Shown piece by piece: positions 17,876 through 63,578 of a stretch of 64,000 bases of DNA. Numbering within the stretch: the stretch's first letter is position 1; the number at the start of each line of letters is the position of its first letter. The notes beneath the pieces are model-generated. The model saw only the letters and a program-made list of their open reading frames with translations, made no database searches and was not told the origin of the DNA. Position numbers and translations under genes: made by a program. Source of the DNA: Sulfurisphaera ohwakuensis (GTDB taxonomy: Archaea; Thermoproteota; Thermoprotei_A; Sulfolobales; Sulfolobaceae); NCBI RefSeq assembly GCF_009729055.1, contig NZ_CP045484.1:1736001-1800000 (forward strand). The letters run 5' to 3'.

Positions 17876-19024
17876 TAGCATTTATAGGAAAATCCTTGCA
17901 GTTTAAGGGCACCTTGAAAACTTTTTAAAAATTAACTGACAAAAGTATTGGATGAATACAAACTCATTACTCCAAGCGTATTACAATGCACTTCAAGAAG
18001 CACTCCAACAAATATTCATCGCCTTGACTAGCGTGAGAAAAGACACACTAGCAAAACTAGTACTTGGAGGAGTAATGGGTGGAACAGCAACAGAAATAGC
18101 CCAAGCAACGGGCATGGACTACGAGACAGTACTAAAAAACCTTAACAAACTAGCAAACACAAACCTGATCAAAATAGTAAAAGAGATAGTACAAGACCAC
18201 CCAGTACAACTAATAATAGACGACACACATGATCACAAACAACACGCAAGAGCACTACCAGTATCAAGAAACGGAGCACAAGTCTTCTACTGCAGAGAAC
18301 ACAAAAGATACGAACCAACAATACAACTACTCATAATAGCAATAAAAGACTTGAAAACAAACGAGACCTACATAGTAACAATAATACCCTACATACCACA
18401 AAAGGTTGTTGAGATATTAAGGGAGAGGGGAGAGGAGGTTGAGTTCAAGACAAAGATACAAGAATACTTGGAAACATTGCCAATTCTCGAGAAGGAGTTT
18501 AATGTTGTGTGCAAGGTTTTTGATTCTTGGTATGTTAATTCTAGGACTCTTTTATCTAATACCGTCGGGGAACTCAAGTCCAACTCGCGGGTCACCGAGG
18601 GTGGTAGGCTCGTGCCAGTTGGCGAGTTCCCCGAGGGGGAATACCTAGTTGAGTATCTAGGTATTCCCATAAAATTACTTGTAATAGATGATTATAAGGG
18701 TTTTGGAAGGAGGTACTTCTTCTCTACCAACGTTAATGATACTGCGGAGGAAATAATAACTGCGTGGGAGAATCGTTGGGATATTGAGGTTTTGATTAGG
18801 GAGCTTAAAGCCTTGGGATTGGAGAAAGGTTCTTTCCTCACTTGGGTTAGGAATAAGGGGTTTATAACCCTTAAGGCTCTCTCCTTACTCTTGGTACTCT
18901 TGTTTAAGTATTCTCTTGGTTTGTATTTGGGTGCCAAGAGGATAGCAAGGGTGATAAAAAGTATTTATCAATCTTTGGGCGGGATTAAGAAACTTTTTAA
19001 GAGAAGGAAAAAGACGTAAAATGC
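17876..19024 (+). mobile_element. Insertion sequence IS-A, intact copy with target duplication
   Basis: The left end starts TAGCATTTATAGGAAAATCC and the right end, read inward, starts with a matching GCATTTTAC. The 8-base sequence TAATCGTG occurs directly before (17868-17875) and directly after (19025-19032) the element, a target duplication that marks a recent insertion. Length is about 1149 bases with one transposase gene. A decayed second copy lies at 58645-59741 and an end fragment at 36372-36498. The same outer terminal repeat is found on the MITEs at 54736 and 58389. Confidence 0.85.
17952..19019 (+). CDS. IS-A transposase, DDE type (IS4 superfamily, ISH3-like)
   Basis: Complete 355-residue transposase. 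It begins with a helix-turn-helix-like stretch (A-T-E-I-A-Q-A-T-G-M-D-Y-E-T-V near 46-60). The catalytic acids are probably Asp in I-I-D-D-T-H-D near 90, Asp in K-V-F-D-S-W-Y-V near 190, and Glu in W-D-I-E-V-L-I-R-E-L near 285, all characteristic of the IS4-like fold. The subfamily name is from memory. Base use changes sharply inside the gene: the first half is A/C-rich (45 of 60 bases at 18121-18180) and the second half is G/T-rich (38 of 60 at 18781-18840), with the switch near 18400. Confidence 0.85.
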   Translation: MNTNSLLQAYYNALQEALQQIFIALTSVRKDTLAKLVLGGVMGGTATEIAQATGMDYETVLKNLNKLANTNLIKIVKEIVQDHPVQLIIDDTHDHKQHARALPVSRNGAQVFYCREHKRYEPTIQLLIIAIKDLKTNETYIVTIIPYIPQKVVEILRERGEEVEFKTKIQEYLETLPILEKEFNVVCKVFDSWYVNSRTLLSNTVGELKSNSRVTEGGRLVPVGEFPEGEYLVEYLGIPIKLLVIDDYKGFGRRYFFSTNVNDTAEEIITAWENRWDIEVLIRELKALGLEKGSFLTWVRNKGFITLKALSLLLVLLFKYSLGLYLGAKRIARVIKSIYQSLGGIKKLFKRRKKT

Positions 19025-24109: not shown

Positions 24110-24271
24110 ATTAAGGAGTGAAAACTCATTTCATTAACTTTTTACCATTTCACAAGTTGTTCACCATTAGAGATTTTTTATTCTGACAGAGTAAAAACTA
24201 ACTTAAAATAAGAGGCAAGTAAGATTCTTACTAAAAGAAGTAACTGAAATTTGATTTCTTCCTTTTTTCTC

Positions 24272-25614
24272 GTGAGCTACCCCGCCCTGAAGGGCGGAGC
24301 TTCCTGCTTCATAGCCCCACCTTGCCCGTAGCTTTTCGCTACGGGTAGAGGGTGGAGCTCCACAGGCACTAAGGATGGCTCCCACCCCGATCTCTTCAAT
24401 ATGTTTAAGCAAGCGTTATAGTCACGATCAGTAACCCAACCACACTTAGGACAGCTGAACACACGGTCAGTCAAAGTTAACTCTTTCTTTACGTACCCGC
24501 ATTTAGCACACATCTTTGAAGTATATGCTGGATTTATTAACAACAGTTTCTTTCCATATTTTTCCAACTGATATTCTAGTATTCTCTTCAACTCATGGAA
24601 TGCAACATCGTGTAACCTCATCCTCAACTTCCTTTCTGACTCCTCCACCAGTTGTTTAACATCTATGTCCTCCATTACTACAACGTCATAATGTTGTGCG
24701 AACCATTTGCCCAACTTCATATAGAGGTCTTGTCTCAAGTTCTTGAAGTGTTCATAACCCCTAGCTAACTTCACTTTTGCTTTAAACCAATTTTTCGACA
24801 AGAACTCTTTCCTCGAGAGAACCTTGTGGAGTTTCCTTATCTTCTCAAGTGCCTTCTCATAAGGTCTCAAGTTAGGGAAATAGAATCCATCACTCGTGGT
24901 TAGGAGTTTCTCTATCCCAACATCTATTGCAACTACCTTACCAGTCTTTGGGAGTTGAGAGAATCCAACACCTCCAACTATGAAGGAGACATATACTCTC
25001 TCTGAACGTGTTAGCTTAACTACCACCCTCTTTACTTTGTCAAGCGGGAAGTCCCTATGAACAATGACCTTAAACACGCCGAGATTTGATAACCTCAATA
25101 ACACCAGCTTCTTCTTATTCTTCCTACTCTTAGTCCTTATTTCCCTGCTCTCAAGTATTTTCTATCCACTTTGTGGGTAAACAAGAGAGTAGTACTTATG
25201 GGGTTTCTTCTCCTTAGGAAAGTGTGCTAGACCTTTGAAGAACCTATCCCTAGCATCGTAATAACGATCGGCAATTTGCTGTACTACTTGTGAGTAGAGT
25301 TGTTGGTACTCCTTATCTTGCTTTCTTAGATCTAGAGCGAGTTGTCTTAACTCCGTTTGTGTAAGACCCTTTCCGTCCCTTTGGTAGAAATAGATATCTG
25401 CCCAGCGTAGGGTGTTGTACATCTCACATGCTAACCTCAACTGGGCTTTTAACGCCCTAATTGTTTGATCGTCAGCATATGCACGAAAGCGGAACCCTAC
25501 GTTGGGCATTAATAAAATGTTCGAGAGTGGATTAAAAAATATTTCTACAAAGGGGGCTATCCATCCCCACTGGCGAGGTTTTTCGCCCCCTTTGAACCCC
25601 TAAACTTTATAAAT
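24272..25614 (-). mobile_element. IS200/IS605-group element with tnpB only, copy 1
   Basis: Near-identical to the element at 44413-45765. Shared sequence runs from GTGAGCTACCCCG on the left to CTAAACTTTATAAAT on the right, with different DNA outside. No tnpA transposase is present, so movement would need a partner elsewhere. GC-rich hairpins lie at both ends, for example CCGCCC with GGGCGG near 24285. In this copy a hairpin near 25575 that is GCCTTAAAAGGC in copy 2 has been deleted. Confidence 0.8.
24277..25509 (-). pseudogene. tnpB: TnpB RNA-guided nuclease gene with one nonsense mutation
   Basis: Compared with the intact copy at 44423-45655, the only serious lesion is a TGG to TAG change of codon 116 (plus-strand CTA at 25162-25164). 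This splits the gene into a 115-residue N-terminal piece and a 275-residue C-terminal piece. The C-terminal piece keeps the RuvC-like acids and the Cys4 zinc ribbon. The hairpins that would belong to the guide RNA at the 3' end are intact. The truncated product might still be made from an internal start, but nuclease activity is doubtful. Confidence 0.85.
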
Positions 25615-25751: not shown

Positions 25752-26702
25752 TCACTCGCTAGCATCAAATGGTTTATTATAATACAGCACAGCCCAAGTA
25801 ATAACAGCTAATTTCCTTGCACAGGCAATAATCAACTTCTTACCCTTCAACTTTCCCTTATGCTCTTCATAAAAACGCTTGATAACAGGATTAACCCTAA
25901 TAGCAGTTAAAGCTGCAAGATAGAAAGCTCTCCTCAAAACAGCATCACCCCTCTTAGAAATACCCTTAGAAACAACACTCTTACCACTAGACTCAATAAC
26001 TGGGTCAAGACCGCAATAAGCAACAAACCTCTTCTTATCACTAAAGCGCCTAATATCACCAACCCTAGCCAAAATTATACAACCCAAGGTTTTACCAATA
26101 CCAGGAATGGTGAAAATCAAACTATCCTTGGGAACAAGATCCTCAAGTTTCTCCTCAATCTCCCTCTTCCTAACCTCAAGTCTCTCCAACTCCTCCAAAA
26201 GAAACCTAACCTCAGCCAAGACAATACTATCCCCACCCCTCAAAACCTCCTCTAAGTTCTTCTTGGACAAACTATCCTTATAGCCCAAAAGTGTCAAATC
26301 CCTCCTCAACCTATTCTTAACCCTAGCAATACTCCTAGTAACAAAATCCCATTGGCTAGTTAACTCCCTAGCATCACTTGTTGTAAACTCACTACCCATA
26401 CTTACAACTATTTCTGCAAGCTTTTTAGCATCATTCTTATCACTCTTCTTACCCCTAAAGTCCTTGAACTTCTTGAGTATGAAGGGATTAATAATCCTAA
26501 CGTCATACTCTCCCATCAAGTACTTTGCTAGGTTAATGTGGTAAATTCCAGTACTTTCAATACCCACTTTACAACCCTTAGGCAAGATCTTAATTATCTC
26601 CTCATAACCTTGCCTATCATTAGGAAACTCGTAGTATTTGCCTTGGAAATATACTACTAATTTATCTTTTGATACGTCTATTCCTGCGACTGGGGCCTCC
26701 AT
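25752..26702 (-). CDS. IS110-family transposase (DEDD recombinase)
   Basis: The 316-residue protein looks complete. The N-terminal RuvC-like domain has Asp9 (G-I-D-V-S-K), Glu49 (G-I-E-S-T-G), and Asp88 and Asp91 (K-K-S-D-K-N-D-A-K-K-L). The C-terminal Transposase_20 domain begins I-P-G-I-G-K-T near 205. It carries S-K-R-G-D-A-V-L-R-R near 258-267, whose serine is the expected catalytic residue. It inserts and excises the element through a bridge-RNA-guided mechanism in characterised relatives. No lesions seen. Confidence 0.9.
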   Translation of the reverse strand: MEAPVAGIDVSKDKLVVYFQGKYYEFPNDRQGYEEIIKILPKGCKVGIESTGIYHINLAKYLMGEYDVRIINPFILKKFKDFRGKKSDKNDAKKLAEIVVSMGSEFTTSDARELTSQWDFVTRSIARVKNRLRRDLTLLGYKDSLSKKNLEEVLRGGDSIVLAEVRFLLEELERLEVRKREIEEKLEDLVPKDSLIFTIPGIGKTLGCIILARVGDIRRFSDKKRFVAYCGLDPVIESSGKSVVSKGISKRGDAVLRRAFYLAALTAIRVNPVIKRFYEEHKGKLKGKKLIIACARKLAVITWAVLYYNKPFDASE

Positions 26703-32914: not shown

Positions 32915-34195
32915 TCATCTTTTCCTAACTAAAACTGCTGATAACCCAACTACAACCACTATTACTACCGCACCTATTATGATATATGTAATAGGTAGGT
33001 TTGTAGATATTTCAGTAGAATTATTCATTGAAGTTTGTGTCATTTGTGTAGATATAACTGGTTTAGTACTAATAATACTGATAGACCCAGATAAAGAATT
33101 CGTTACGTATATATATCCGTTAGAGGGATCATAAACAATACCTGACGGACAATCTCCAACTGTTATATTCGCTATTACTTGATTTCTTGAAGGGTTAATA
33201 ACTGAGACCATGTTAGATTTAGTATCTGTAACGTATATGTATCCATTACTAGGATCATAAACAATATCTGACGGGCCTTGTCCAATGGATATATTAGCTA
33301 TTACGGTGTTGCTACTAGAGTTAATTACAGAAATTGTATTAGACTTAAAATCTGTAACGTATATGTATCCGTTAGAAGGATCATAAACCATACTCAATGG
33401 ATCTTGTCCTACAGATATATTAGCTATTACTTTGTTCGTAGAGGTATTAATGACAAAAACTGAGTTAGACCTAGGGTTTGCAACGTATATATATCCATTA
33501 CTAGGATCATATAAAATACCTGATGGAATTACAATATCATGAGGGATTCTTCCGAGTTTTATTCCATGAATTATTTCGTTTGTAGAGGAATTAATAACAA
33601 ATACTGGAAATAAGATAGAACTACTTGTGATATATATATATCCGTTAGAAGGATCATAAACCATATTATCCGGTACTGTTAAGGGAGAAAGTAATGCATT
33701 AGTTATATTCATTATTACTTGGTTAGTAGAAGGGTTAATAACAAATAGGCTTACTAGACTTCTGACGTATATGTATCCGTTAGAAGGATCATATAATAGA
33801 CTCCATGGATGCCCTTTAATTGTTATATTAGCTATAACATGATTTGTAGTAGAATTAATTACAGATACTGTATCAGACCCAGAATCTGCAACATATATGT
33901 ATCCGTTACTAGGATCATAAATAATACCAAGTGGGCCAAGATCACTCTTAGGGCTTATTACATTACCTTGTAGTAGTGTGTTATTGTACAATATTAAAGT
34001 GTATTTCACATAACCTACGTTGGTATTTGTATTAACATATGCAACTATTATTGAGCTTAGGTTAGGTAAAATTGTTAAAAACATTAGTATTAGCAATATC
34101 TCAATTATTACCCTCCTTACATTACTATTGACCATAACAAAAAATGAATGAAACTCTCTAATATTTTTTTCCATAATAAAAAAGTCATAGAACAT
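32915..34195 (-). CDS. Surface-anchored YVTN-type beta-propeller protein
   Basis: The 426-residue protein contains about seven repeats of 40-45 residues with the core Y-D-P-S-N-G-Y-I-Y-V-T followed by V-S-V-I-N and V-I-A-N-I. This is the YVTN/LVIVP propeller pattern known from archaeal surface-layer-type proteins. A signal peptide lies near residues 27-48 and a C-terminal membrane anchor near 400-422 ends in R-K-R. Met21 (codon at 34135) gives a more typical signal peptide than Met1, so the true start may be there. It is probably displayed on the cell surface, with a binding or adhesion role. The repeats are near-identical at DNA level, so length variation by recombination is possible. Confidence 0.85.
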   Translation of the reverse strand: MFYDFFIMEKNIREFHSFFVMVNSNVRRVIIEILLILMFLTILPNLSSIIVAYVNTNTNVGYVKYTLILYNNTLLQGNVISPKSDLGPLGIIYDPSNGYIYVADSGSDTVSVINSTTNHVIANITIKGHPWSLLYDPSNGYIYVRSLVSLFVINPSTNQVIMNITNALLSPLTVPDNMVYDPSNGYIYITSSSILFPVFVINSSTNEIIHGIKLGRIPHDIVIPSGILYDPSNGYIYVANPRSNSVFVINTSTNKVIANISVGQDPLSMVYDPSNGYIYVTDFKSNTISVINSSSNTVIANISIGQGPSDIVYDPSNGYIYVTDTKSNMVSVINPSRNQVIANITVGDCPSGIVYDPSNGYIYVTNSLSGSISIISTKPVISTQMTQTSMNNSTEISTNLPITYIIIGAVVIVVVVGLSAVLVRKR

Positions 34196-37723: not shown

Positions 37724-38743
37724 ATGACTGAAGAATTTAAAAAGTGGTTTGCTGAATTCCTCAATAAGATTGCCGAGAAGATTAAGAAGGGGGAACAGTT
37801 AAGTGATATGGAAATAGAAATAGTGGTAAATTACGTTTCTAATTTACAATTATATGAGCACGTAGATAGGAGGATTAGTGATATTGAGAGGAGTTTGAGA
37901 GATGAGATAAGGAAGACAAGAGAAGACTTACTAGCTAATGATGAGAAAGTAAAGCAGGAATTAATAAAAGAAATCAATACTGCGAAAGGAGATTTAGAAA
38001 AGAAAATAAAAGATACTAGGACGGACCTTGAGAAGAAGATTGAAACAACACGAACAGAACTCAAAGCAGATATGTCTACGATAAAGGGAGATTTGGAGAA
38101 AAAGATTGAAGGAACTAGAGCGGATCTAGATAAAAATATCGAAGACACGAGAATAGACCTTGAGAAGAAGATTGAGGACACACGAAAAGATTTAGATAAA
38201 AAGATTGAGGACACAAGGGTAGAGCTTAAGAGTGAAATAAATACTGTAAGACAAGATTTGGAGAAGAAGATTGATGATACACGAAAAGATTTGGAGAAGA
38301 AGATTGAGGACACAAAAACAGAACTTAAGGGTGAGATATCTACAGTTAAAGGAGAGCTGGAGAAGAAAATAGAAGATACCAGAGCAGATTTAGAGAAGAA
38401 GATCGAGGCTACCAGAAGTGATTTGGGTTTAATTGCTGAGGAGGTTTATATTAAGAATTTTGTTGATTATTTAGATAAGGCAGGAGAGAAGGTTATTAGT
38501 GTTTATAGGCATTATGAAGTTGGTGATGGAGAGGTTGATGCTCTTGTTGAAACTCAGGCTAAGGTTTATGTTGTTGAGGTTAAGATGAAGGCTGAGTTTA
38601 AGGATGTTGATAGTTTACTAGTTAAGGTTAAGGCAATTAGTGAGGAGTATAAGGGAAAGGACATTATCCCAGTCTTAACTGGGTCAAGGATTAGTAAGAC
38701 CGTTAGAGGTTATGCAAAAGGCCATAATGTAATGGTAGTGTAA
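37724..38743 (+). CDS. Hendecad coiled-coil protein with C-terminal PD-(D/E)XK nuclease-like domain
   Basis: Residues 70-230 are an almost perfect run of 11-residue repeats of the form D-L-E-K-K-I-E-D-T-R-x, predicting a long right-handed coiled coil. The C-terminal 100 residues carry E-V-D-A-L-V near 272-277 and V-Y-V-V-E-V-K near 284-290, the D...E-x-K core of a PD-(D/E)XK nuclease. This is the DUF3782-like arrangement known from Sulfolobales. DNA-level repeats in the coil could expand or contract. The function is unknown; the nuclease residues are intact. Confidence 0.78.
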   Translation: MTEEFKKWFAEFLNKIAEKIKKGEQLSDMEIEIVVNYVSNLQLYEHVDRRISDIERSLRDEIRKTREDLLANDEKVKQELIKEINTAKGDLEKKIKDTRTDLEKKIETTRTELKADMSTIKGDLEKKIEGTRADLDKNIEDTRIDLEKKIEDTRKDLDKKIEDTRVELKSEINTVRQDLEKKIDDTRKDLEKKIEDTKTELKGEISTVKGELEKKIEDTRADLEKKIEATRSDLGLIAEEVYIKNFVDYLDKAGEKVISVYRHYEVGDGEVDALVETQAKVYVVEVKMKAEFKDVDSLLVKVKAISEEYKGKDIIPVLTGSRISKTVRGYAKGHNVMVV

Positions 38744-39302: not shown

Positions 39303-39626
39303 TTATTTTTGGACCACAGGTTTGTTCTTAAACTCATTAAAATCATCAACTACTGTAACGTTAGGTGAAGAAAGCGCGTTTCTCACAATCCAATAATCCT
39401 TATTCTCGTAACAGATTACTTGATAGTCCAATTTAATCCCGTTTAGTTCTTCAGTGAAGGAATAAGGTATCTCTAACCCTTTTCTTCCTAAACAATTCTC
39501 AGTTATTATTAAAACATCTAAATCGCTAGCAGGATAATAATTACCTTTAATCCTACTGCCATGTAAAATGATAGCTACTTTACCAAATATCGGTCTCAAT
39601 TTCTCAGCTAACTGACTGAAGAAGCG
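39303..39626 (-). pseudogene. MNT-type nucleotidyltransferase, 5' end cut by an IS
   Basis: The open frame carries the minimal nucleotidyltransferase signature H-G-S-R-I-K-G-N-Y-Y-P-A-S-D-L-D-V-L near residues 13-30. In the same frame coding continues upstream (F-F-S-Q-L-A-E-K-L) to the edge of the IS1-type element at 39627, so the true N-terminus is separated by the insertion. Across the IS, on the same strand, ATG at 40793-40795 followed by N-K-N-R could be the lost start. MNT proteins act as antitoxins that modify HEPN toxins; no HEPN gene is adjacent. Confidence 0.65.
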
Positions 39627-40779
39627 GGACTGTTCTCAAACAGTCATGAAATTCGAAAAATATTTGTAAAAATATTAGTGTACTCATAAAAAGTCTTTTT
39701 TCTAATATAGTTCGCTGAAAAGAACTAGAAGTACAAAGAGCAAAAATTGTTTTAGGAAAAACTTATGTGCAAGGGTTACGAGATTTTATGGGGGTTGCGA
39801 GATGAACCTCGTAACCCTTGCACAATTAATATTTTTGATTTTGAGGAATTTAAATTTTAAGCCAAGAAAACACGAGCTAGAAGACCTTGCTTATGCAATA
39901 GCAGCATACTTACTAGGAGTACAAGTCACTAAGTTGGGAATACCACCATCAACACTACACTAAAAAACTTGGGGTAAGGAGGAGAAGAGAAGAGAAACCG
40001 CCATGCCCCTCATGCAAATCAAATAAAGTAGTAAAGAATGGATCATCTAGAGGAAAATCAAAATACAAGTGCAAAACTTGCGGAAGAACATTCTACCAAA
40101 CAACTAACCACAAGATGAGTAAAGAACAGAAGGAGAGAGTATTGAAGGACTACACGAATAGAATGAGCATGAGAGCAATAGCAAGGGTTGAAGGAAAACC
40201 GTTAACAACAATATAAGGAGAAAAGGAGTAGAAGCCTATGCTCACCTACTAATCTTACGAGAACAATTAAAGAATCTTACAGCAAAAGTCACGGTAATTG
40301 ATGAAAGTTGGACTTACGTGAGGGTTAGACATGGACAAAAGAGGGAGAACTTGTGGATATGGAATTCATTACAAGATGGTGTACCCTTCTTCATTACGGG
40401 TGATAGGGATTATAGGACTTTTAGTTACCTCTTGAATACCCTACCCAAAAGCGAAGTATATTACACTGATGATTACTCAGTCTACCAAGTACTCAACAAT
40501 CACGTTGTAGGTAAGAAGTATACATATACTGTGGAGAGTTATAATTCTTACTGTAGGGCTCATTTAGCTAGGTTAGCAAGGGATACGAGGGCTTTTAGTA
40601 GGAGTGGAGTCATGGTTGAGTATAGTCTTGCCTTATTAGATGTCATGCACCCAGTAGTTTATTCAAGGGAAAAAACATTCTTGAATCAAGCTTACTTGAA
40701 GGGGATACAGTATATTAGAAGTAAACTGATATAATATTACAAATACTTATCGAATTTCATGACTGTTTGAGAACAGTCC
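39627..40779 (+). mobile_element. IS1-family-type insertion sequence, decayed
   Basis: The ends GGACTGTTCTCAAACAGTC (39627) and its complement GACTGTTTGAGAACAGTCC (40761-40779) are exact inverted repeats, and the similarity extends inward as ATGAAATTCG. The terminal repeat is itself a small hairpin (GACTGTT and AACAGTC). It contains one transposase gene with several stops. Three MITE-like derivatives lie at 638, 30222 and 31942. Confidence 0.8.
39802..40734 (+). pseudogene. IS1-type transposase, interrupted
   Basis: Reading frames in order: a helix-turn-helix-like N-terminus from ATG 39802 ending P-P-S-T-L-H; a zinc ribbon C-P-S-C...C-K-T-C-G-R-T-F; an InsA-like helix-turn-helix (M-S-M-R-A-I-A-R-V-E-G); then the catalytic part V-I-D-E-S-W-T-Y-V, Y-T-D-D-Y-S-V-Y and S-Y-N-S-Y-C-R-A-H-L-A-R-L. 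Stops or shifts lie near 39959 and 40213. From 40318 to the end it is open. Like the IS-A gene, the 5' half is A/C-rich (40 of 60 at 40081-40140) and the 3' half G/T-rich (39 of 60 at 40561-40620). Confidence 0.75.
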
Positions 40780-40935
40780 CCCTATTTTTATTCATTATGT
40801 ATTAAATAATTGGAGAGATTTCTATGTTAGTTAGACTTTATAACACAAATATTATTCTATTTTTGAACATAGAAAGATTATTGCATCACAAACTAGGAGT
40901 ATATATATTTTCGGTTTAACTTTAGCAAAACCCAA

Positions 40936-44412: not shown

Positions 44413-45765
44413 TTGTTGTGAGCTACCCCGCCCTGAAGGGCGGAGCTTCCTGCTTCATAGCCCCACCTTGCCCGTAGCTTTTCGCTACGGGTAGAGGGTA
44501 GAGCTCCACAGGCACTAAGGATGGCTCCCACCCCGATCTCTTCAATATGTTTAAGGAAGCATTATAGTCACGATCAGTAACCCAACCGCACTTAGGACAG
44601 CTGAACACACGGTCAGTCAAAGTTAACTCTTTCTTTACGTACCCGCATTTGGCACACATCTTTGAAGTATATGCTGGATTTATTAACAACAGTTTCTTTC
44701 CATATTTTTCCAACTGATATTCTAGTATTCTCTTCAACTCATGGAATGCAACATCGTGTAACCTCATCCTCAACTTCCTTTCTGACTCCTCCACCAGTTG
44801 TTTAACATCTATATCCTCCATTACTACAACGTCATAATGTTGTGCGAACCACTTACCCAACTTCATATAGAGGTCTTGTCTCAAGTTCTTCAAGTGTTCA
44901 TAACCCCTAGCTAACTTCACTTTTGCTTTAAACCAATTTTTCGACAAGAACTCTTTCCTCGAGAGAACCTTGTGGAGTTTCCTTATCTTCTCAAGTGCCT
45001 TCTCATAAGGTCTCAAGTTAGGGAAATAGAATCCATCACTCGTGGTTAGGAGTTTCTCTACCCCAACATCTATTGCAACTACCTTACCAGTCTTTGGGAG
45101 TTGAGAGAATCCAACACCTTCAACCATGAAGGAGATGTACACTCTCTCTGAACGTGTTAGTTTAACTACCACCCTCTTTACTTTATCAAGCGGGAAGTCC
45201 CTATGAACAATGACCTTAAACACGCCGAGATTTGATAACCTCAATAACACCAGCTTCTTCTTATTCTTCCTACTCTTAGTCCTTATTTCCCTGCTCTCAA
45301 GTATTTTCCATCCACTTTGTGGGTAAACAAGAGAGTAGTACTTATGGGGTTTCTTCTCCTTAGGAAAGTGTGCTAGACCTTTGAAGAACCTATCCCTAGC
45401 ATCGTAATAACGATCGGCAATTTGCTGTACTACTTGTGAGTAGAGTTGTTGGTACTCCTTATCTTGCTTTCTTAGATCTAGAGCGAGTTGTCTTAACTCC
45501 GTTTGTGTAAGACCCTTTCCGTCCCTTTGGTAGAAATAGATATCTGCCCAGCGTAGGGTGTTGTACATCTCACATGCTAACCTCAACTGGGCTTTTAACG
45601 CCCTAATTGTTTGATCGTCAGCATATGCACGAAAGCGGAACCCTACGTTGGGCATTAATAAAATGTTCGAGAGTGGATTAAAAAATATTTCTACAAAGGG
45701 GGCTATCCATCCCCGCCTTAAAAGGCGAGGTTTTTCGCCCCCTTTGAACCCCTAAACTTTATAAA
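44413..45765 (-). mobile_element. IS200/IS605-group element with tnpB only, copy 2
   Basis: Intact counterpart of the element at 24272-25614. The left boundary is at GTGAGCTACCCCG and the right at CTAAACTTTATAAAT. It contains only tnpB. At the right end CGCCTTAAAAGGCG (45716-45729) is a perfect small hairpin. The stop codon of tnpB lies almost at the element end, so any guide RNA would be read from the 3' end of the gene into the flanking DNA. Confidence 0.82.
44423..45655 (-). CDS. tnpB: TnpB RNA-guided nuclease, intact
   Basis: The 410-residue protein has an N-terminal helical and beta-barrel region (1-185) and a split RuvC-like domain: Asp196 (V-V-A-I-D-V-G), Glu280 (V-V-M-E-D-I-D) and Asp363 (T-D-R-D-Y-N-A). 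The Cys4 zinc ribbon is C-A-K-C-G at 334-338 and C-P-K-C-G at 353-357. All catalytic residues are present. Characterised relatives cut DNA guided by an RNA from the element's 3' end and need a short target-adjacent motif. The last residues are encoded by a CCGCCC/GGGCGG hairpin, part of the expected guide RNA scaffold. Confidence 0.9.
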
Positions 45766-45880
45766 TTCCCTTATATTCATTATTCTAATATCATCTTATA
45801 AGGATTATTTTTTGTAAAGTGATTTTGGGTCTACCGAGTAGCAAGGTTTTTTATTCTATTAATTTGAGATATACTTAGGT

Positions 45881-46627
45881 ATGTCATTAGCTAATGAGAT
45901 TAAAAAGGTCCTTATGGAGAACCCCTCTATCTTAGCAGATGTACTGGCATCTAGGCCTGAAATTCTTTATCAAGTCTTGGCAAAGCTTATGCCTTGGCAG
46001 AATTTAGCCACAAAGCAAGATTTAGAGGAAGTAAAAACTACGTTAAGACAGGAAATAGAAGAAATTAGGAAAAACATGGCAACAAAAGAGGATATAAGAA
46101 ATATGGCAACAAAGGACGATTTAAAGAACCTAGCTACTAGACAAGAGTTGGAGGAAATAAAGAAAGTAATGGCAACAAAGGACGATATTAAGGACATGGC
46201 CACTAAGAAGGATATTAAGAGGTTAGAGGTATGGATTAGTGCCTTAGGTGCTAGATGGGGTATTACTGCTGAAGATGTTTTTAGGCAAGGTATTGTAGAA
46301 TTATTGTCTGATGCCGGTTGGAAAGTCGATAGAGAGATTATTTTCGATAAAGATGGTTTTGTTTACGGTTATCCCTCTGAGGTCGAGATTGATGTTGTTG
46401 TGAGTGATGGCAAGGTTATTTTAGTTGAGTTGACCGCCTCATTAAAGAGGGGCGAGTTAGTTCAGATAAGTAGGAAGAGGGAGTTGTATGAGAAGTTAAA
46501 GGGTAAAAAGGTATCTGAGGTTATTGTAGTTACTCCTTTTATAGATGACAAAAATGAGGAAAGGGTTATAGCCATAGCTAACTCCTTAGGTATTAAGATA
46601 ATTAAGCCCAGTGAGATAAATAGTTAA
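45881..46627 (+). CDS. DUF3782-like coiled-coil protein with nuclease-like C-terminus
   Basis: The 248-residue protein has a repetitive middle part in which M-A-T-K-x-D-I/L-x-x recurs about seven times at residues 45-115, predicting a helical stalk. The C-terminal 110 residues hold E-V-E-I-D-V-V-V near 170 and V-I-L-V-E-L-T near 183-189. This is the PD-(D/E)XK core, but the usual lysine is replaced by threonine (E-L-T); a lysine six positions later might substitute. It is related in layout to the protein at 37724-38743. The gene follows a tnpB element; no operon partner. Confidence 0.7.
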   Translation: MSLANEIKKVLMENPSILADVLASRPEILYQVLAKLMPWQNLATKQDLEEVKTTLRQEIEEIRKNMATKEDIRNMATKDDLKNLATRQELEEIKKVMATKDDIKDMATKKDIKRLEVWISALGARWGITAEDVFRQGIVELLSDAGWKVDREIIFDKDGFVYGYPSEVEIDVVVSDGKVILVELTASLKRGELVQISRKRELYEKLKGKKVSEVIVVTPFIDDKNEERVIAIANSLGIKIIKPSEINS

Positions 46628-55046: not shown

Positions 55047-56251
55047 ATAGCAGTTATTCTACTTTAACGTAACTTAAAAGTTTTCATCAAACCTAGAGCA
55101 CCCCCTAAACGAATTTCAACGAACCGGAGAAACTCCTCCACACTCCTCAAGTTAAGGGAGCTAATCAAATCTCTAACCGTGTTAACCACCATCACGAAGA
55201 GAAGCAAGTAACCTTGAAGCCTCTTCCTCTTTAAGAAAGAGGAATCTTGCATACCAAGAGCCTTAATATCCCTATGAAACTTCTCTATCTCCCACCTAAT
55301 CCTCCAAGTAGCCTCTATCTCCCCATCACTCAAGCTAAGATCAGTAGAGTACAAATTCAGCCTATTAGATTTATATTCCAGTACTAACAACTTTATAGTA
55401 ATAACTCGACTCTCAAGGGTTAGGTCAGCCAAGTAAGAGCCTGGAGGGAGATCTCGGACGTGGATGTGCCCCTCCACATCCAACGTCCCCCCTCCCTCCA
55501 AACACCTAACCCTTAAGAGCCTCCTATTAGACCTCAACTCAGAAACAACACAACCCCTCACCAACTTCTCAGACCAATACCAAGAATCAAACACAACCCT
55601 AGCTATAGTGAATTTACTCTTGAGTATCTCAATTATTTCTGCAGCCATCTCTATCTTTGTCTTGAATTCGCTCACCATCCCGCTTTCCCACATTTTTCTT
55701 GTTGCGTATGGGAACGCGCCGACCAAGTAGTTTTTTCCCGTGGCTAAGTCGATAAGGCTATTGTGAGTATTTGTATTCCTGGTTCGAATTTCTTGTGTGT
55801 GGAGCAGTAGAAGATGTAGTTCCATATCTGCTTGCTATTTCTTCTATTCTTGAGTATGGTTTGTGGTCGAATGTGTCGTCTATTATAATCACTACGGGTC
55901 CTACTATTGTTTTGCTTAGTGTATCAAGGTAGTGTTTCCATGCTTCTTCAAGGCGTTCTAGTGCTTCTAATAGGTTTGCGTAGTTTAGTCCGAATGTTAT
56001 TGCTGTGTTTCTTATGCTTGCTCTTCCTCCTATTAGTGTCATGAGTGTTAGGCCTAGTGCTACTTTTCTTTTGAGTCCCTTCATTCTAAGTATTCCAACT
56101 AGGTGGTTGAATGCCTTGATGAATTCGCTCCTTGCAACTTCTAGTTCTTTCTCGTTCTTCATACTTTTTAATCAATTATGTGGTAAATTAAAAACTTTAT
56201 CGGTAGTACTGAAAGTCTTGTATTACCAAGGCAAAGTAGAATAACTGCTAT
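55047..56251 (-). mobile_element. Insertion sequence IS-B, decayed
   Basis: The terminal repeats ATAGCAGTTATTCTACTT (55047) and AAGTAGAATAACTGCTAT (ending 56251) are exact complements except for the flanks, and ATAATA occurs on both sides as a likely target duplication (55041-55046 and 56252-56257). Length is 1205 bases. A second end fragment is at 36503-36586. Confidence 0.8.
55064..56162 (-). pseudogene. IS-B transposase (IS4-like DDE), frameshifted
   Basis: The N-terminal part (from ATG 56162) contains I-I-I-D-D-T-F-D-H-K-P-Y-S-R, clearly related to I-I-D-D-T-H-D-H-K-Q-H-A-R in the IS-A transposase. Near 55760-55830 the frame shifts twice. The C-terminal part (to 55064) has R-V-V-F-D-S-W-Y-W-S and W-E-I-E-K-F-H-R-D-I-K-A-L-G, with the remaining catalytic Asp and Glu. 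It is a distant relative of IS-A. The compositional switch from A/C-rich to G/T-rich also occurs here, near 55630, the element midpoint being 55649. Confidence 0.78.
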
Positions 56252-58472: not shown

Positions 58473-58644
58473 CCCTAGACCCCAATTTCATCACCCCGAA
58501 AATAATTCAAGAGAGTTAAAAAATAGATAAAATAATTTAGCTAAATATTCTTGCAAAATAGTAATATTATCTTGCAAGAGCAAGATGGTTAGGAGTAAGC
58601 GGAAGTCTTCCTTGCTCGTTGTCCCCTTGAGGAGCAAGTATAGT
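58473..58644 (+). repeat. Repeat unit D, copy 1
   Basis: 172 bases nearly identical to 61748-61919. Starts CCCTAGACC and ends GAGGAGCAAGTATAGT. The right half can fold in alternative ways because GAGCAAG, CTTGCTC and GAGCAAG occur in series. It directly abuts the end of an IS-A copy at 58645, and copy 2 is preceded by TAGCATTTTA, the IS-A tip, so it may be an IS-A-linked MITE. Confidence 0.65.
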
Positions 58645-59741
58645 TAGCATTTTACGTCTTTTTCCTTCTCTTAAAAAGTTTCTTAATCCCGCCCAAAGAT
58701 TGATAAATACTTTTTATCACCCTTGCTATCCTCTTGGCACCCAAATACAAACCAAGGGAATACTTAAACAAGAGTACCAAGAGTAAGGAGAGGGCCTTAA
58801 GGGTTATAAACCCCTTATTCCTAACCCAAGTGAGGAAAGAACCTTTCTCCAATCCCAAGGCTTTAAGCTCCCTAATCAAAACCTCAATATCCCAACGATT
58901 CTCCCACGCAGTTATGATATCCTCAGCAGTATCATTAACGTTGGTAGAGAAGACCTCCTTCCAAAACCCTTATAATCATCTATTACAAGTAATTTTATGG
59001 GAATACCTAAATACTCAACTAGGTATTCCCCCTCGGGGAACTCGCCAACTGGCACAAGCCTACCACCCTCGGCGACTCGCGAGTTGGACTTAAGTTCCCC
59101 GACGGTATTAGATAAAAGAGTCCTAGAATTAACATACCAAGAGTCAAACGATTTCAATACAATGTTAAATTCTTTCTCTAGAAGTGATAGTAACTCCAAG
59201 TTGGATTTTCGTTTTAAACTCTGCTTCTTCTTGAGTATTTTTGCAACTTTTTGTGGTATGTAGGGTATTGTTACTATGTAGGTTTCGTTTGTTTTTAAGT
59301 CTTTTATTGCTATTATGAGTAGTTGTATTGTTGGTTCGTATCTTTTGTGTTCTCTGCAGTAGAAGACTTGTGCTCCGTTTCTTGATACTGGTAGTGCGTG
59401 TTGTTTGTGATCATGTGTGTCGTCTATTATTAGTTGTACTGGGTGGTCTTGTACTATCTCTTTTACTATTTTGATCAGTTTGCTAGTTTGTTAAGGTACT
59501 GTGTCGTAGTCCATGCGCGTTGCTATTTCTGTTGCTGTTCCACCCATTACTCCTCCAAGTACTAGTTTTGCTAGTGTGTCTTTTCTCAAGCTAGGTTGTG
59601 AATATTTGTTGTAATGCTTCTTGAAGTGCTTTGTAATACGCTTGGATTAGTGAGTTTGTATTCATCCGATATTTTTGTTAGTTAATTTTTAAAAAGTTTT
59701 CAAGGTCTCCTTAAACTGCAAGGATTTTCCGACAAATGCTA
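58645..59741 (-). mobile_element. Insertion sequence IS-A, decayed copy
   Basis: The ends TAGCATTTTACGTC (58645) and GGATTTTCCGACAAATGCTA (ending 59741) match the ends of the intact copy in reverse orientation. It is about 50 bases shorter than the intact copy. Confidence 0.78.
58652..59665 (-). pseudogene. IS-A transposase, decayed copy
   Basis: Same protein as at 17952-19019, read from about 59665 down to 58652. Frames are broken near 59580, 59490, 59200 and 58900-58915. Conserved pieces include the start M-N-T-N-S-L, D-D-T-H-D-H-K-Q-H, K-S-F-D-S-W-Y-V-N-S and the C-terminal K-K-L-F-K-R-R-K-K-T. Not functional. Confidence 0.8.
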
Positions 59742-62233: not shown

Positions 62234-63578
62234 GTCAGTATGGGAACCTTTTTTTTCGCGTAAAAAACGAGATGAATAAAATTCAGAAAAAATCTAATTT
62301 ATGCTAACTTTTGTAGAAAAGTTTGTATAAGCGAGGGCGGACCTAACTATATGGCTAGGACAAAAGGGGTCAAGCAAATCAATAGAGACTTTATTAGGTC
62401 CGCCCTCAAATTAATTTACACAATACTAGCTCAAATATTTTTCCCTTATGAACTTAAACAACTACTGAGAACCCTACTCAAGGCTAGAGGAACCTACTTG
62501 AGCAGACTAGGAAACGAGGGAAGAAGAACCTTGAGGATCTTGAACCACATCAATGTTGAAGACATAAGAAAAGCAATCAAAGAATCGGGAAAGAAAACAT
62601 TAAGAGAAACAAGAGATAAAAGAGTAGCAATAGACTTTCATACAATACCACAAGGATAAAACACTATTAAGCAGGCCAACCAAAGGGACCAGTTGGGGAC
62701 TAGCCCAAGCAACAATCTTCCTACTAGGAAGAAAAAAAGCCTTCTTAGACGTTCTACCAATAACAATAAAAAGAATAGCCGAAGACTTCAAGAAGGTAAT
62801 CCAAGTTCTTAAGGAAGAGTTAGACAACGAGAGACTTAAGCTCGTCATGGTCTTTGCAGATAGGGAGTTTGCAGTAAACGATGCGATCAAGTATCTCTTG
62901 GTGTGGACTTTGTCATAGCTGCTAAGGCTCAGATGTATAGGAAGTATGAGAAGAGGCTTAAGCAAGTTGATTATGCTGGGGTGAGGTATGTTGGTTTCTT
63001 GTGTGTAAGGCATGATTCTGGTGCTTATCTAGTTATACTAAAGAGGGAGGATGGTAAGGTTATAGGGTTTTTAGTTAGGTGAGGTTGATGTTAGGACTGC
63101 TGTTGTTTTGGCTGAGATGTATAGGGAGAGGTGGGGTGTTGAGAATGCTTTTCGTTCTCTTGAGGAGTTTAGGGTTAGGACTAGGACTTGTGATGTTGGG
63201 AAGGAGTTGATTCTCGTTCTTCTATCCTATTTTCTCTTGAATGTTTGGTTTTTGGTTCGTTCTTGGAGGAGGGTGAGGTTGTGGGAGTTTTGTGAGTCTC
63301 TCTTGGAGGGGCTTGAGGTATCGTGTAACTCAAGGGGTAAAAGGGTTAGGGCAAGGGTGTTATCACGGAAGGCGTTTTCCCTCAAGTCCAGCTGATTCTA
63401 TGCTTCCTCTTCTGTCAACGTTAAATAAATTGTATATCTCTCGTATATTCAAGAAAAGTATTATTTATTAGTTGCAATAGGTCGAAATATATGATATTTT
63501 ATCGTAAATTAATTGAATTCAATTCAATTTATTCTAAGTTTTAATTTATCTTGCAATAAACGAGATTCCCATACTGAC
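62234..63578 (+). mobile_element. Insertion sequence IS-C, decayed
   Basis: The ends GTCAGTATGGGAACC (62234) and GGGATTCCCATACTGAC-like CGAGATTCCCATACTGAC (ending 63578) are inverted repeats. The length is 1345 bases. It carries one broken transposase gene. A 3' fragment of another copy is at 43844-44266. Confidence 0.75.
62351..63395 (+). pseudogene. IS-C transposase (DDE type), frameshifted
   Basis: Starts ATG 62351. Conserved blocks are V-A-I-D-F-H-T-I-P near 62625, M-V-F-A-D-R-E-F near 62850 and W-G-V-E-N-A-F-R-S-L-E-E-F near 63133, supplying the likely D, D and E. Shifts or stops lie near 62657, 62903 and 63080. The first half is A/C-rich (39 of 60 at 62641-62700) and the second half G/T-rich (44 of 60 at 63121-63180), with the change near 62870. 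Family uncertain, IS4/IS5-like. Confidence 0.7.

Follow-up and report, generated by a model that had tools for sequence, protein, structure and literature searches.

The window, a stretch of 64,000 nucleotides from the Sulfurisphaera ohwakuensis genome (NZ_CP045484.1, positions 1,736,001 to 1,800,000), contains several insertion sequences (ISs). IS-A (17876..19024, plus strand) is a complete ISC1217-type insertion sequence of ~1149 bp, whose ends are common to other copies in the source genome (G000) and which matches PF04693 (E=1.8e-166). A decayed second copy of the same type (58644..59741, minus strand) forms inverted repeats with it. IS-B (55064..56162, minus strand) is an ISC1217-type transposase gene in two frames, a disrupted copy of the L059/L007 subfamily, and IS-C (62351..63395, plus strand) is a disrupted transposase gene of the ISH3 family. 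The IS1-type element (39623..40783, plus strand) has 53-nt terminal inverted repeats. Also present are an IS110-type transposase (25752..26702, minus strand) and a TnpB of the IS605 type (44423..45655, minus strand), the latter used as a control. The TnpB element exists in two copies, 98% identical (24267-24566 / 44413-44712 and 25572-25614 / 45724-45766), and the TnpB ORF at 24277-25104 is without its 5' part. Other repeats lie within ORFs: the one at 37724-38743 contains many 33-nt (11-codon) coiled-coil-like units of the DLEKKIEDTR type, with a shorter relative at 45881-46627, and a minus-strand ORF at 32915-34195 contains 126-nt repeats, with copies at 33101-33926.

The sense strand of IS-A changes abruptly from amino-rich (A/C) to keto-rich (G/T). 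Windows of 60 bases contain 40-45 A+C up to ~18415, and then G+T amounts to 41, 42 and 40 of 60 at 18476, 18776 and 18896. Third-position A+C of the transposase ORF (17952-19019) falls from 0.79 to 0.34 (a difference, d, of +0.449), and the maximum-likelihood step at codon 150 divides an amino-rich part (17952..18402, plus strand; third positions A.60, C.25, G.08, T.07) from a keto-rich part (18402..19019, plus strand; A.19, C.16, G.33, T.33). The decayed copy retains this profile (.89.77.92 1.0.56.37.41). IS-B and IS-C show the same change in 60-base windows of their sense strands, near 55600 and 62850, with d over all codon positions of +0.25 and +0.28, respectively; the intact relative of IS-B (L007/L059) reaches +0.50 at third positions. 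The IS1-type element switches more weakly, near 40310, where its second ORF begins. Nearly the whole IS110-type ORF is keto-rich, with a step at 8% of its length, and the TnpB control has no clear switch (third-position d=+0.08). The remaining ORFs of the window have d within about ±0.17, bar one short ORF at -0.23. The phenomenon itself is secure. A sequence-only reading of this DNA had reported the change in four elements of different families; 60-base windows confirm it in all four, the IS1-type element more weakly, and the effect is considerably larger than that reading was able to demonstrate. The families are fewer than stated, as IS-A and IS-B both belong to PF04693/ISC1217 (subfamilies with ~34% amino acid identity), while IS-C is ISH3 and the fourth is IS1.

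The keto-rich segment of IS-A is interrupted by a very stable, conserved coding hairpin (18540..18689, plus strand), which locally breaks the skew. The same hairpin occurs at 0.62-0.66 of the ORF in the ISC1217-type genes L007/L059, L203, L079, L306, L056 and L251, with about -62 to -69 kcal/mol per 120-150 nt (z -5 to -6 versus synonymous shuffles). It is present in both subfamilies, although they share only ~34% of residues, and in four IS-B-type sequences 10 of the 42 pairs are changed on both sides. No Rfam match to it was found.

The switch is a property of mobile elements. A scan of 864 kb from the source and related genomes, based on unrepeated ORFs of at least 150 aa, gives d=0.000 at third positions for 442 such ORFs (SD 0.071, range -0.32 to +0.28), so ordinary genes do not switch as the ISs do, and the multi-copy clusters among the outliers are transposases. 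The top positive outlier among the unrepeated ORFs is an ordinary-looking RmlD-type reductase gene (L066:14229-15050), with third-position A+C of 0.69 and 0.42. Carriers of the switch are transposases of named IS families: PF04693/ISC1217, NF033541/ISH3, PF03400/IS1, NF033545/IS630, NF033559/IS1634, NF033551/IS1182, NF033540/IS701 and NF033590/IS4. Within the Sulfolobaceae they comprise ISC1217, ISH3, IS4-like, IS5-like, IS630, IS1 and PF00872-like elements. The two-fold, strand-antisymmetric polarity proposed from the sequence, specific to elements and recurring across unrelated families, is thus supported. IS630 elements with two ORFs have an A/C-rich first ORF and a G/T-rich second one; the switch falls between them, and hence the unit is the element rather than a single protein. 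A weak gradient spans both genes of the IS607 tnpA-tnpB pairs of Sulfolobaceae, and the change in skew is slight in elements with TnpB alone and in IS607 of other families. All ISs sampled (L079, L225, L227, L095, L230, L239 and others) have GC3 of 0.40-0.87, above that of host genes in Sulfolobaceae that encode the mismatch endonuclease NucS (0.28-0.35). In the high-GC3 ones a slight opposite gradient is seen, with G3 early and C3 later.

In nearly all strong cases a step fits the profile better than a line. Alignment of two-fold codons at the step shows a drop in C/(C+T) from.84 to.38 and in A/(A+G) from.61 to.19 over no more than 20 codons, bordered by plateaus, although aligning on the fitted step somewhat overstates its sharpness. 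Both boundaries could be found for 25 element families (several copies with common ends per genome). At both element ends the skew fades over ~100-250 bp, and over the last 20-40 codons at either end; the UTRs are nearly unskewed, flanking DNA is near 0.5 and neighbouring ORFs average 0. The profile is the same in copies of either orientation. The suggestion that the switch marks the element midpoint holds in part: most steps lie at 37-57% of the ORF, but the full range is 8-90%, including the IS110 element at 8%, one ISH3 element at 29% and an ISC1217 copy of a sister species at ~90%. The step may follow the centre of the element or that of the ORF, two points that lie close together. Step positions also differ between species. 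In the sister species, ISC1217 copies (L203:5422-6483, and L351 of G030) are A/C-rich up to ~80-90% of the ORF, and ISH3 copies of the same genome are G/T-rich from 29% on. A fixed protein-domain boundary is ruled out as the origin of the switch, as homologues step at 42% and ~90% of the ORF and IS630 elements step between ORFs. Also ruled out is a gradient of resection or deamination from the ends, given that the profile is a step and is weakest at the ends.

The bases involved are best described by comparison with host genes, in which C/(C+T) is.33 and A/(A+G) is.59. The corresponding values in the switch elements of Sulfolobaceae are.81/.64 on the left and.32/.23 on the right, and in high-GC3 elements without a switch ~.78/.19 throughout. 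Elements of Candidatus Bathycorpusculum have.75/.90 on the left and.12/.29 on the right, versus.45/.64 in a small sample of other ORFs. On a logit scale, these codon data resolve into two components, a GC shift (g) and an amino/keto shift that is antisymmetric (s). The values of g and s are ~0.9 and ~1.0 for Sulfolobaceae switch elements, 1.9 and ~0 for high-GC3 elements, and about -0.2 and ~1.5 for Bathycorpusculum elements. At four-fold sites of the Sulfolobaceae elements, pyrimidines make up.35 on the left (Y/R.35/.65 versus.50/.50 in host genes) and.64 on the right; host frequencies multiplied by an amino/keto factor of four predict.35/.65, whereas a transition-only process predicts.50. 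Transversions thus contribute, as an amino/keto preference predicts. The Y/R pools at four-fold sites are unchanged in Bathycorpusculum, which agrees with transitions alone; there the shift proceeds via both C/T and A/G. An 'A>G only' process, suggested by the two-fold codons of Sulfolobaceae, is contradicted by Bathycorpusculum, and the combination of GC and amino/keto shifts fits better. Avoidance of UpA is ruled out, since ATA, CTA and GTA are still common in the left segment.

The force behind the skew reaches the protein. Although 84% of residues are common to IS-A and L203:5422-6483, its homologue in the sister species, the two switch at 42% and ~90% of the ORF, respectively. Between these positions, 52 of 60 synonymous amino/keto differences have G or T in IS-A and A or C in L203, and non-synonymous changes polarised by outgroups track the local skew (21:0 towards A/C in L203, 8:3 towards G/T in IS-A), indicating a force sufficient to alter the protein sequence. 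In certain archaea, DDE insertion sequences thus have the 5' half of each strand kept amino-rich and the 3' half keto-rich, at synonymous and in part at amino acid-changing sites.

The strongest cases are found in Candidatus Bathycorpusculum, which we take to be a termite-gut archaeon and not a hot-spring genus. Its IS1634 element L176 goes from 95% to 25% A+C, more than any Sulfolobaceae case, and its IS701, IS1182, IS4 and ISH3 elements show the same switch; heat and acid are therefore not needed, and thermal or acid chemistry is ruled out as a requirement. No switch is seen in E. coli IS1, IS5 and IS30 or in the ISs of Halobacterium, Methanomethylovorans, Nostoc and Acetobacter. Deinococcus ISs are weakly positive (d up to +0.18), and IS701/IS1634 elements of Actinobacteria slightly negative (d -0.01 to -0.18). 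A moderate opposite switch, keto-rich then amino-rich (d -0.18 to -0.27), occurs in IS5-like elements of other Thermoproteota families (L163, L165, L167, L199, L200). The sequence-only reading knew of no description of the switch, and we found none in the open-access literature; as the search covered open-licence papers only, an older account elsewhere is possible. The amino/keto switch of several IS families thus appears to be an undescribed signal in much-studied organisms.

Its distribution among hosts follows that of EndoMS/NucS to some extent. EndoMS of S. islandicus cleaves G/T, G/G and T/T mismatches (PMC7736090), whereas A-C is hardly a substrate of NucS, which also interferes with homeologous recombination (PMC8228993). 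The prediction that hosts of the switch need NucS was fixed ahead of the genome test. NucS is absent from five Sulfolobaceae genomes (G007, G008, G009, G011 and G027) and present in all ten others tested, including every one with the switch, as well as in all Bathycorpusculum genomes; MutS is absent from all 30 genomes searched. All tested hosts of native switch elements therefore have NucS. Transposase clusters found only in NucS+ Sulfolobaceae have a mean d of +0.32, with 13 of 17 above 0.2, so that in these hosts the switch is the rule among ISs. Clusters found only in NucS- Sulfolobaceae have a mean of -0.10 (0 of 7 above 0.2), and those shared by both groups +0.06. The first two sets differ with p=5.5e-5, although clusters are not independent. 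Exceptions are partly explained by transfer between the two host groups: the skewed L028 elements of NucS- G011 are 97-99% identical to copies in NucS+ G013 and look imported, and the unskewed L079:16430-17368 of NucS+ G015 is 94-96% identical to copies in G007. One cluster common to G011, G013 and G015 is skewed.

The NucS contrast within the Sulfolobaceae is confounded with GC, since GC3 is.50-.62 in the NucS- genomes sampled versus.28-.35 in NucS+ ones, and no low-GC3 cluster exists in NucS- hosts. It may reflect one or two losses in few lineages. Outside this family NucS+ hosts do not generally show the switch: IS5-like elements in NucS+ genomes of four other families (f11, f16, f18 and f30) have no skew or the opposite one (d -0.07 to -0.27). 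The Actinobacteria strains with IS701/IS1634 that were sampled presumably have NucS as well, yet as a positive control they failed, with no positive switch. As there are NucS+ lineages without the switch, NucS looks necessary at most, and not sufficient.

Recent changes were compared with composition in copies at least 88% identical, with polarity assigned by majority. In both halves of switch elements these changes have host-like spectra. The left half shows 29.6 T>C and 42.4 C>T per 1000 sites, implying C/(C+T) of.41 versus.81 observed, and the right half 27.1 A>G and 39.9 G>A, implying A/(A+G) of.60 versus.23. Composition held by mutation alone would need ~73 and 59 events, against an actual 12 and 12. 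Per site, A:T>G:C changes towards the skew exceed opposite ones by a factor of only 1.34 (49/2386 versus 55/3578, p=0.085), and non-singleton sites have no excess. The counts are modest, many copies are young or dead, fossil copies are included, and any mutations that accompany transposition, a rare event, may escape such a comparison. Recent polymorphisms, if continued, would erase the skew. Composition at equilibrium is thus shifted although mutation is not, as biased gene conversion requires, and it looks to be maintained by selection or biased conversion rather than by current mutation. Of the two interpretations first attached to the switch, a mutational process acting from both ends is not supported in its simple form, as the ends have the weakest skew, the bias it needs is not seen in recent polymorphisms, and transversions contribute. 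The other, in which the two halves of the transposase mRNA base-pair with each other, is scarcely plausible. Composition alone does lift cross-switch pairs ~1.7-fold over whole-gene shuffles, but synonymous shuffles kept within halves do as well as the real sequence of all eight elements in best centre-symmetric pairing and longest stem, so there is no complementarity beyond composition, and among the minimum-energy folds of six elements only that of L185 has significantly more pairs across the switch. The initial interpretation is thereby only partly supported.

Selection may act instead on the transcript or on single-stranded DNA, an account that we consider rather unlikely. Segments with mainly amino or mainly keto bases cannot self-pair, and an IS would benefit if its mRNA or ssDNA stayed unpaired locally, with 5' to 3' polarity; in two-codon families, the amino/keto choice is the sole synonymous route to such segments. 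The composition behaves as if selected and the UTRs are almost free of skew; Sulfolobus mRNAs being mostly leaderless, a skew limited to the ORF would also be one limited to the transcript. The antisense RNAs of S. solfataricus, which mostly lie opposite transposase genes (PMC3674436), also fit this account. Yet the folding energy of whole mRNAs is no weaker than after gene-wide codon shuffles, and the high-GC3 relatives are strongly structured and evidently viable. Moreover, an all-A/C gene would serve better, leaving the switch itself unexplained, as is the dependence on host lineage. A mutation bias tied to transposition itself is likewise on the unlikely side. It would stem either from deamination of an exposed strand (the 3' halves) or from inward synthesis from both ends, in which amino-amino mispairs escape NucS and the new strand gains A and C. 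The sign of the skew fits both versions; the C/T and A/G shifts of Bathycorpusculum ISs resemble strand-specific deamination, and the version with the NucS blind spot leads one to expect transversions and an association with host as well. However, the 1.34-fold excess among recent changes falls far short of what the composition needs, heat-driven deamination is not required in a genus that we take not to be of hot springs, and transition-only deamination fails at the four-fold sites of Sulfolobaceae.

Archaeal RadA prefers GT-rich ssDNA, as does RecA. G/T-rich 3' tails might therefore be better repaired or spread, so that selection keeps both 3' halves keto-rich, and the 3' half of each strand is indeed the G/T-rich one; still, this is improbable, because RecA has the same preference and E. 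coli ISs have no switch, and because the NucS/host association is left unexplained. Least credible of all is that the switch is an artefact, caused by chimaerism, host codon usage or the composition of the protein. The same genomes do contain high-GC3 relatives that lack a switch, but synonymous sites carry the switch, the same proteins exist with and without it (IS-A versus L079, 68% identity), and at least nine families are affected while ordinary genes are not.

The reading that we prefer, with clearly limited confidence, is that strand-polarised biased gene conversion via NucS produces the switch. Its strand polarity, direction of conversion and use of NucS are what we infer from the patterns above. 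Ends made by the transposase would be resected 5' to 3', so the strands pairing with other copies would always be the 3' halves, on the left the bottom strand and on the right the top one. EndoMS/NucS would cut keto-keto mismatches (G/T, G/G, T/T) in the heteroduplex and hardly touch amino-amino ones (A/C, A/A, C/C). Where a recipient carries a keto base on the top strand of the left half, it would be cut and converted to the amino allele, while an amino base would be spared; the right half would be the mirror image. If 5'-resected ends pair with other copies, and a nuclease destroys keto-keto heteroduplexes but spares amino-amino ones, strand-antisymmetric biased gene conversion would result, and many rounds over many copies would yield the antisymmetric composition, with the switch where the two tracts meet. 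Somewhat more doubtful is the broader proposal that such NucS-dependent conversion in MutS-less archaea drives the amino-rich 5' and keto-rich 3' halves, with the composition as a record of how far, and with what polarity, transposon ends recombine. The conversion model does not predict in detail the sharp step, its lineage-specific position or the fade at the ends, and the near absence of skew from UTRs also counts against it.

Several known systems resemble the switch in part. Replication-associated strand asymmetry (GC or keto skew at bacterial origins, and the heavy and light strands of mitochondria) is also an antisymmetric skew that changes sign at a point, and the sign in ISs is that of a diverging 'origin' at the element centre. 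However, the IS switch spans a single gene of 1-1.5 kb, goes with the element wherever and in whichever orientation it lies, leaves neighbours unskewed, and is without a matching bias in the recent mutation spectrum; it neither continues into the flanks nor follows the direction of chromosome replication. GC-biased gene conversion, known in bacteria (PMC4450053), shares the selection-like behaviour, the action on recombining sequence and the origin in mismatch repair, and these ISs also have GC3 above that of their hosts. The switch differs in being strand-specific and antisymmetric, in opposing amino to keto rather than GC to AT, and in that the proposed enzyme is NucS and not MutS. For EndoMS/NucS mismatch repair (PMC5290159, PMC7736090, PMC8228993), the division of substrates into G/T, G/G, T/T versus A/C corresponds to the keto and amino sides of the skew, transversions included; we found no published role for it in transposon evolution or gene conversion, and the association described here is comparative only. 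Transcription-associated asymmetry, a G+T excess on the coding strand, likewise enriches one strand of a transcribed unit in keto bases, but the sense strand of the ISs is keto-poor in its first part and ordinary genes of these genomes have no such asymmetry.

Whatever its cause, the switch constrains how archaeal transposons are copied or repaired, and it can be used as a marker of element boundaries and host history. It is directly testable in a genetic model with an existing endoMS deletion. If the link to NucS is true, the substrate preference of a mismatch-repair enzyme can write a strand-specific composition into mobile DNA, and if NucS-dependent conversion is indeed at work, a repair system shapes mobile elements down to their amino acids.
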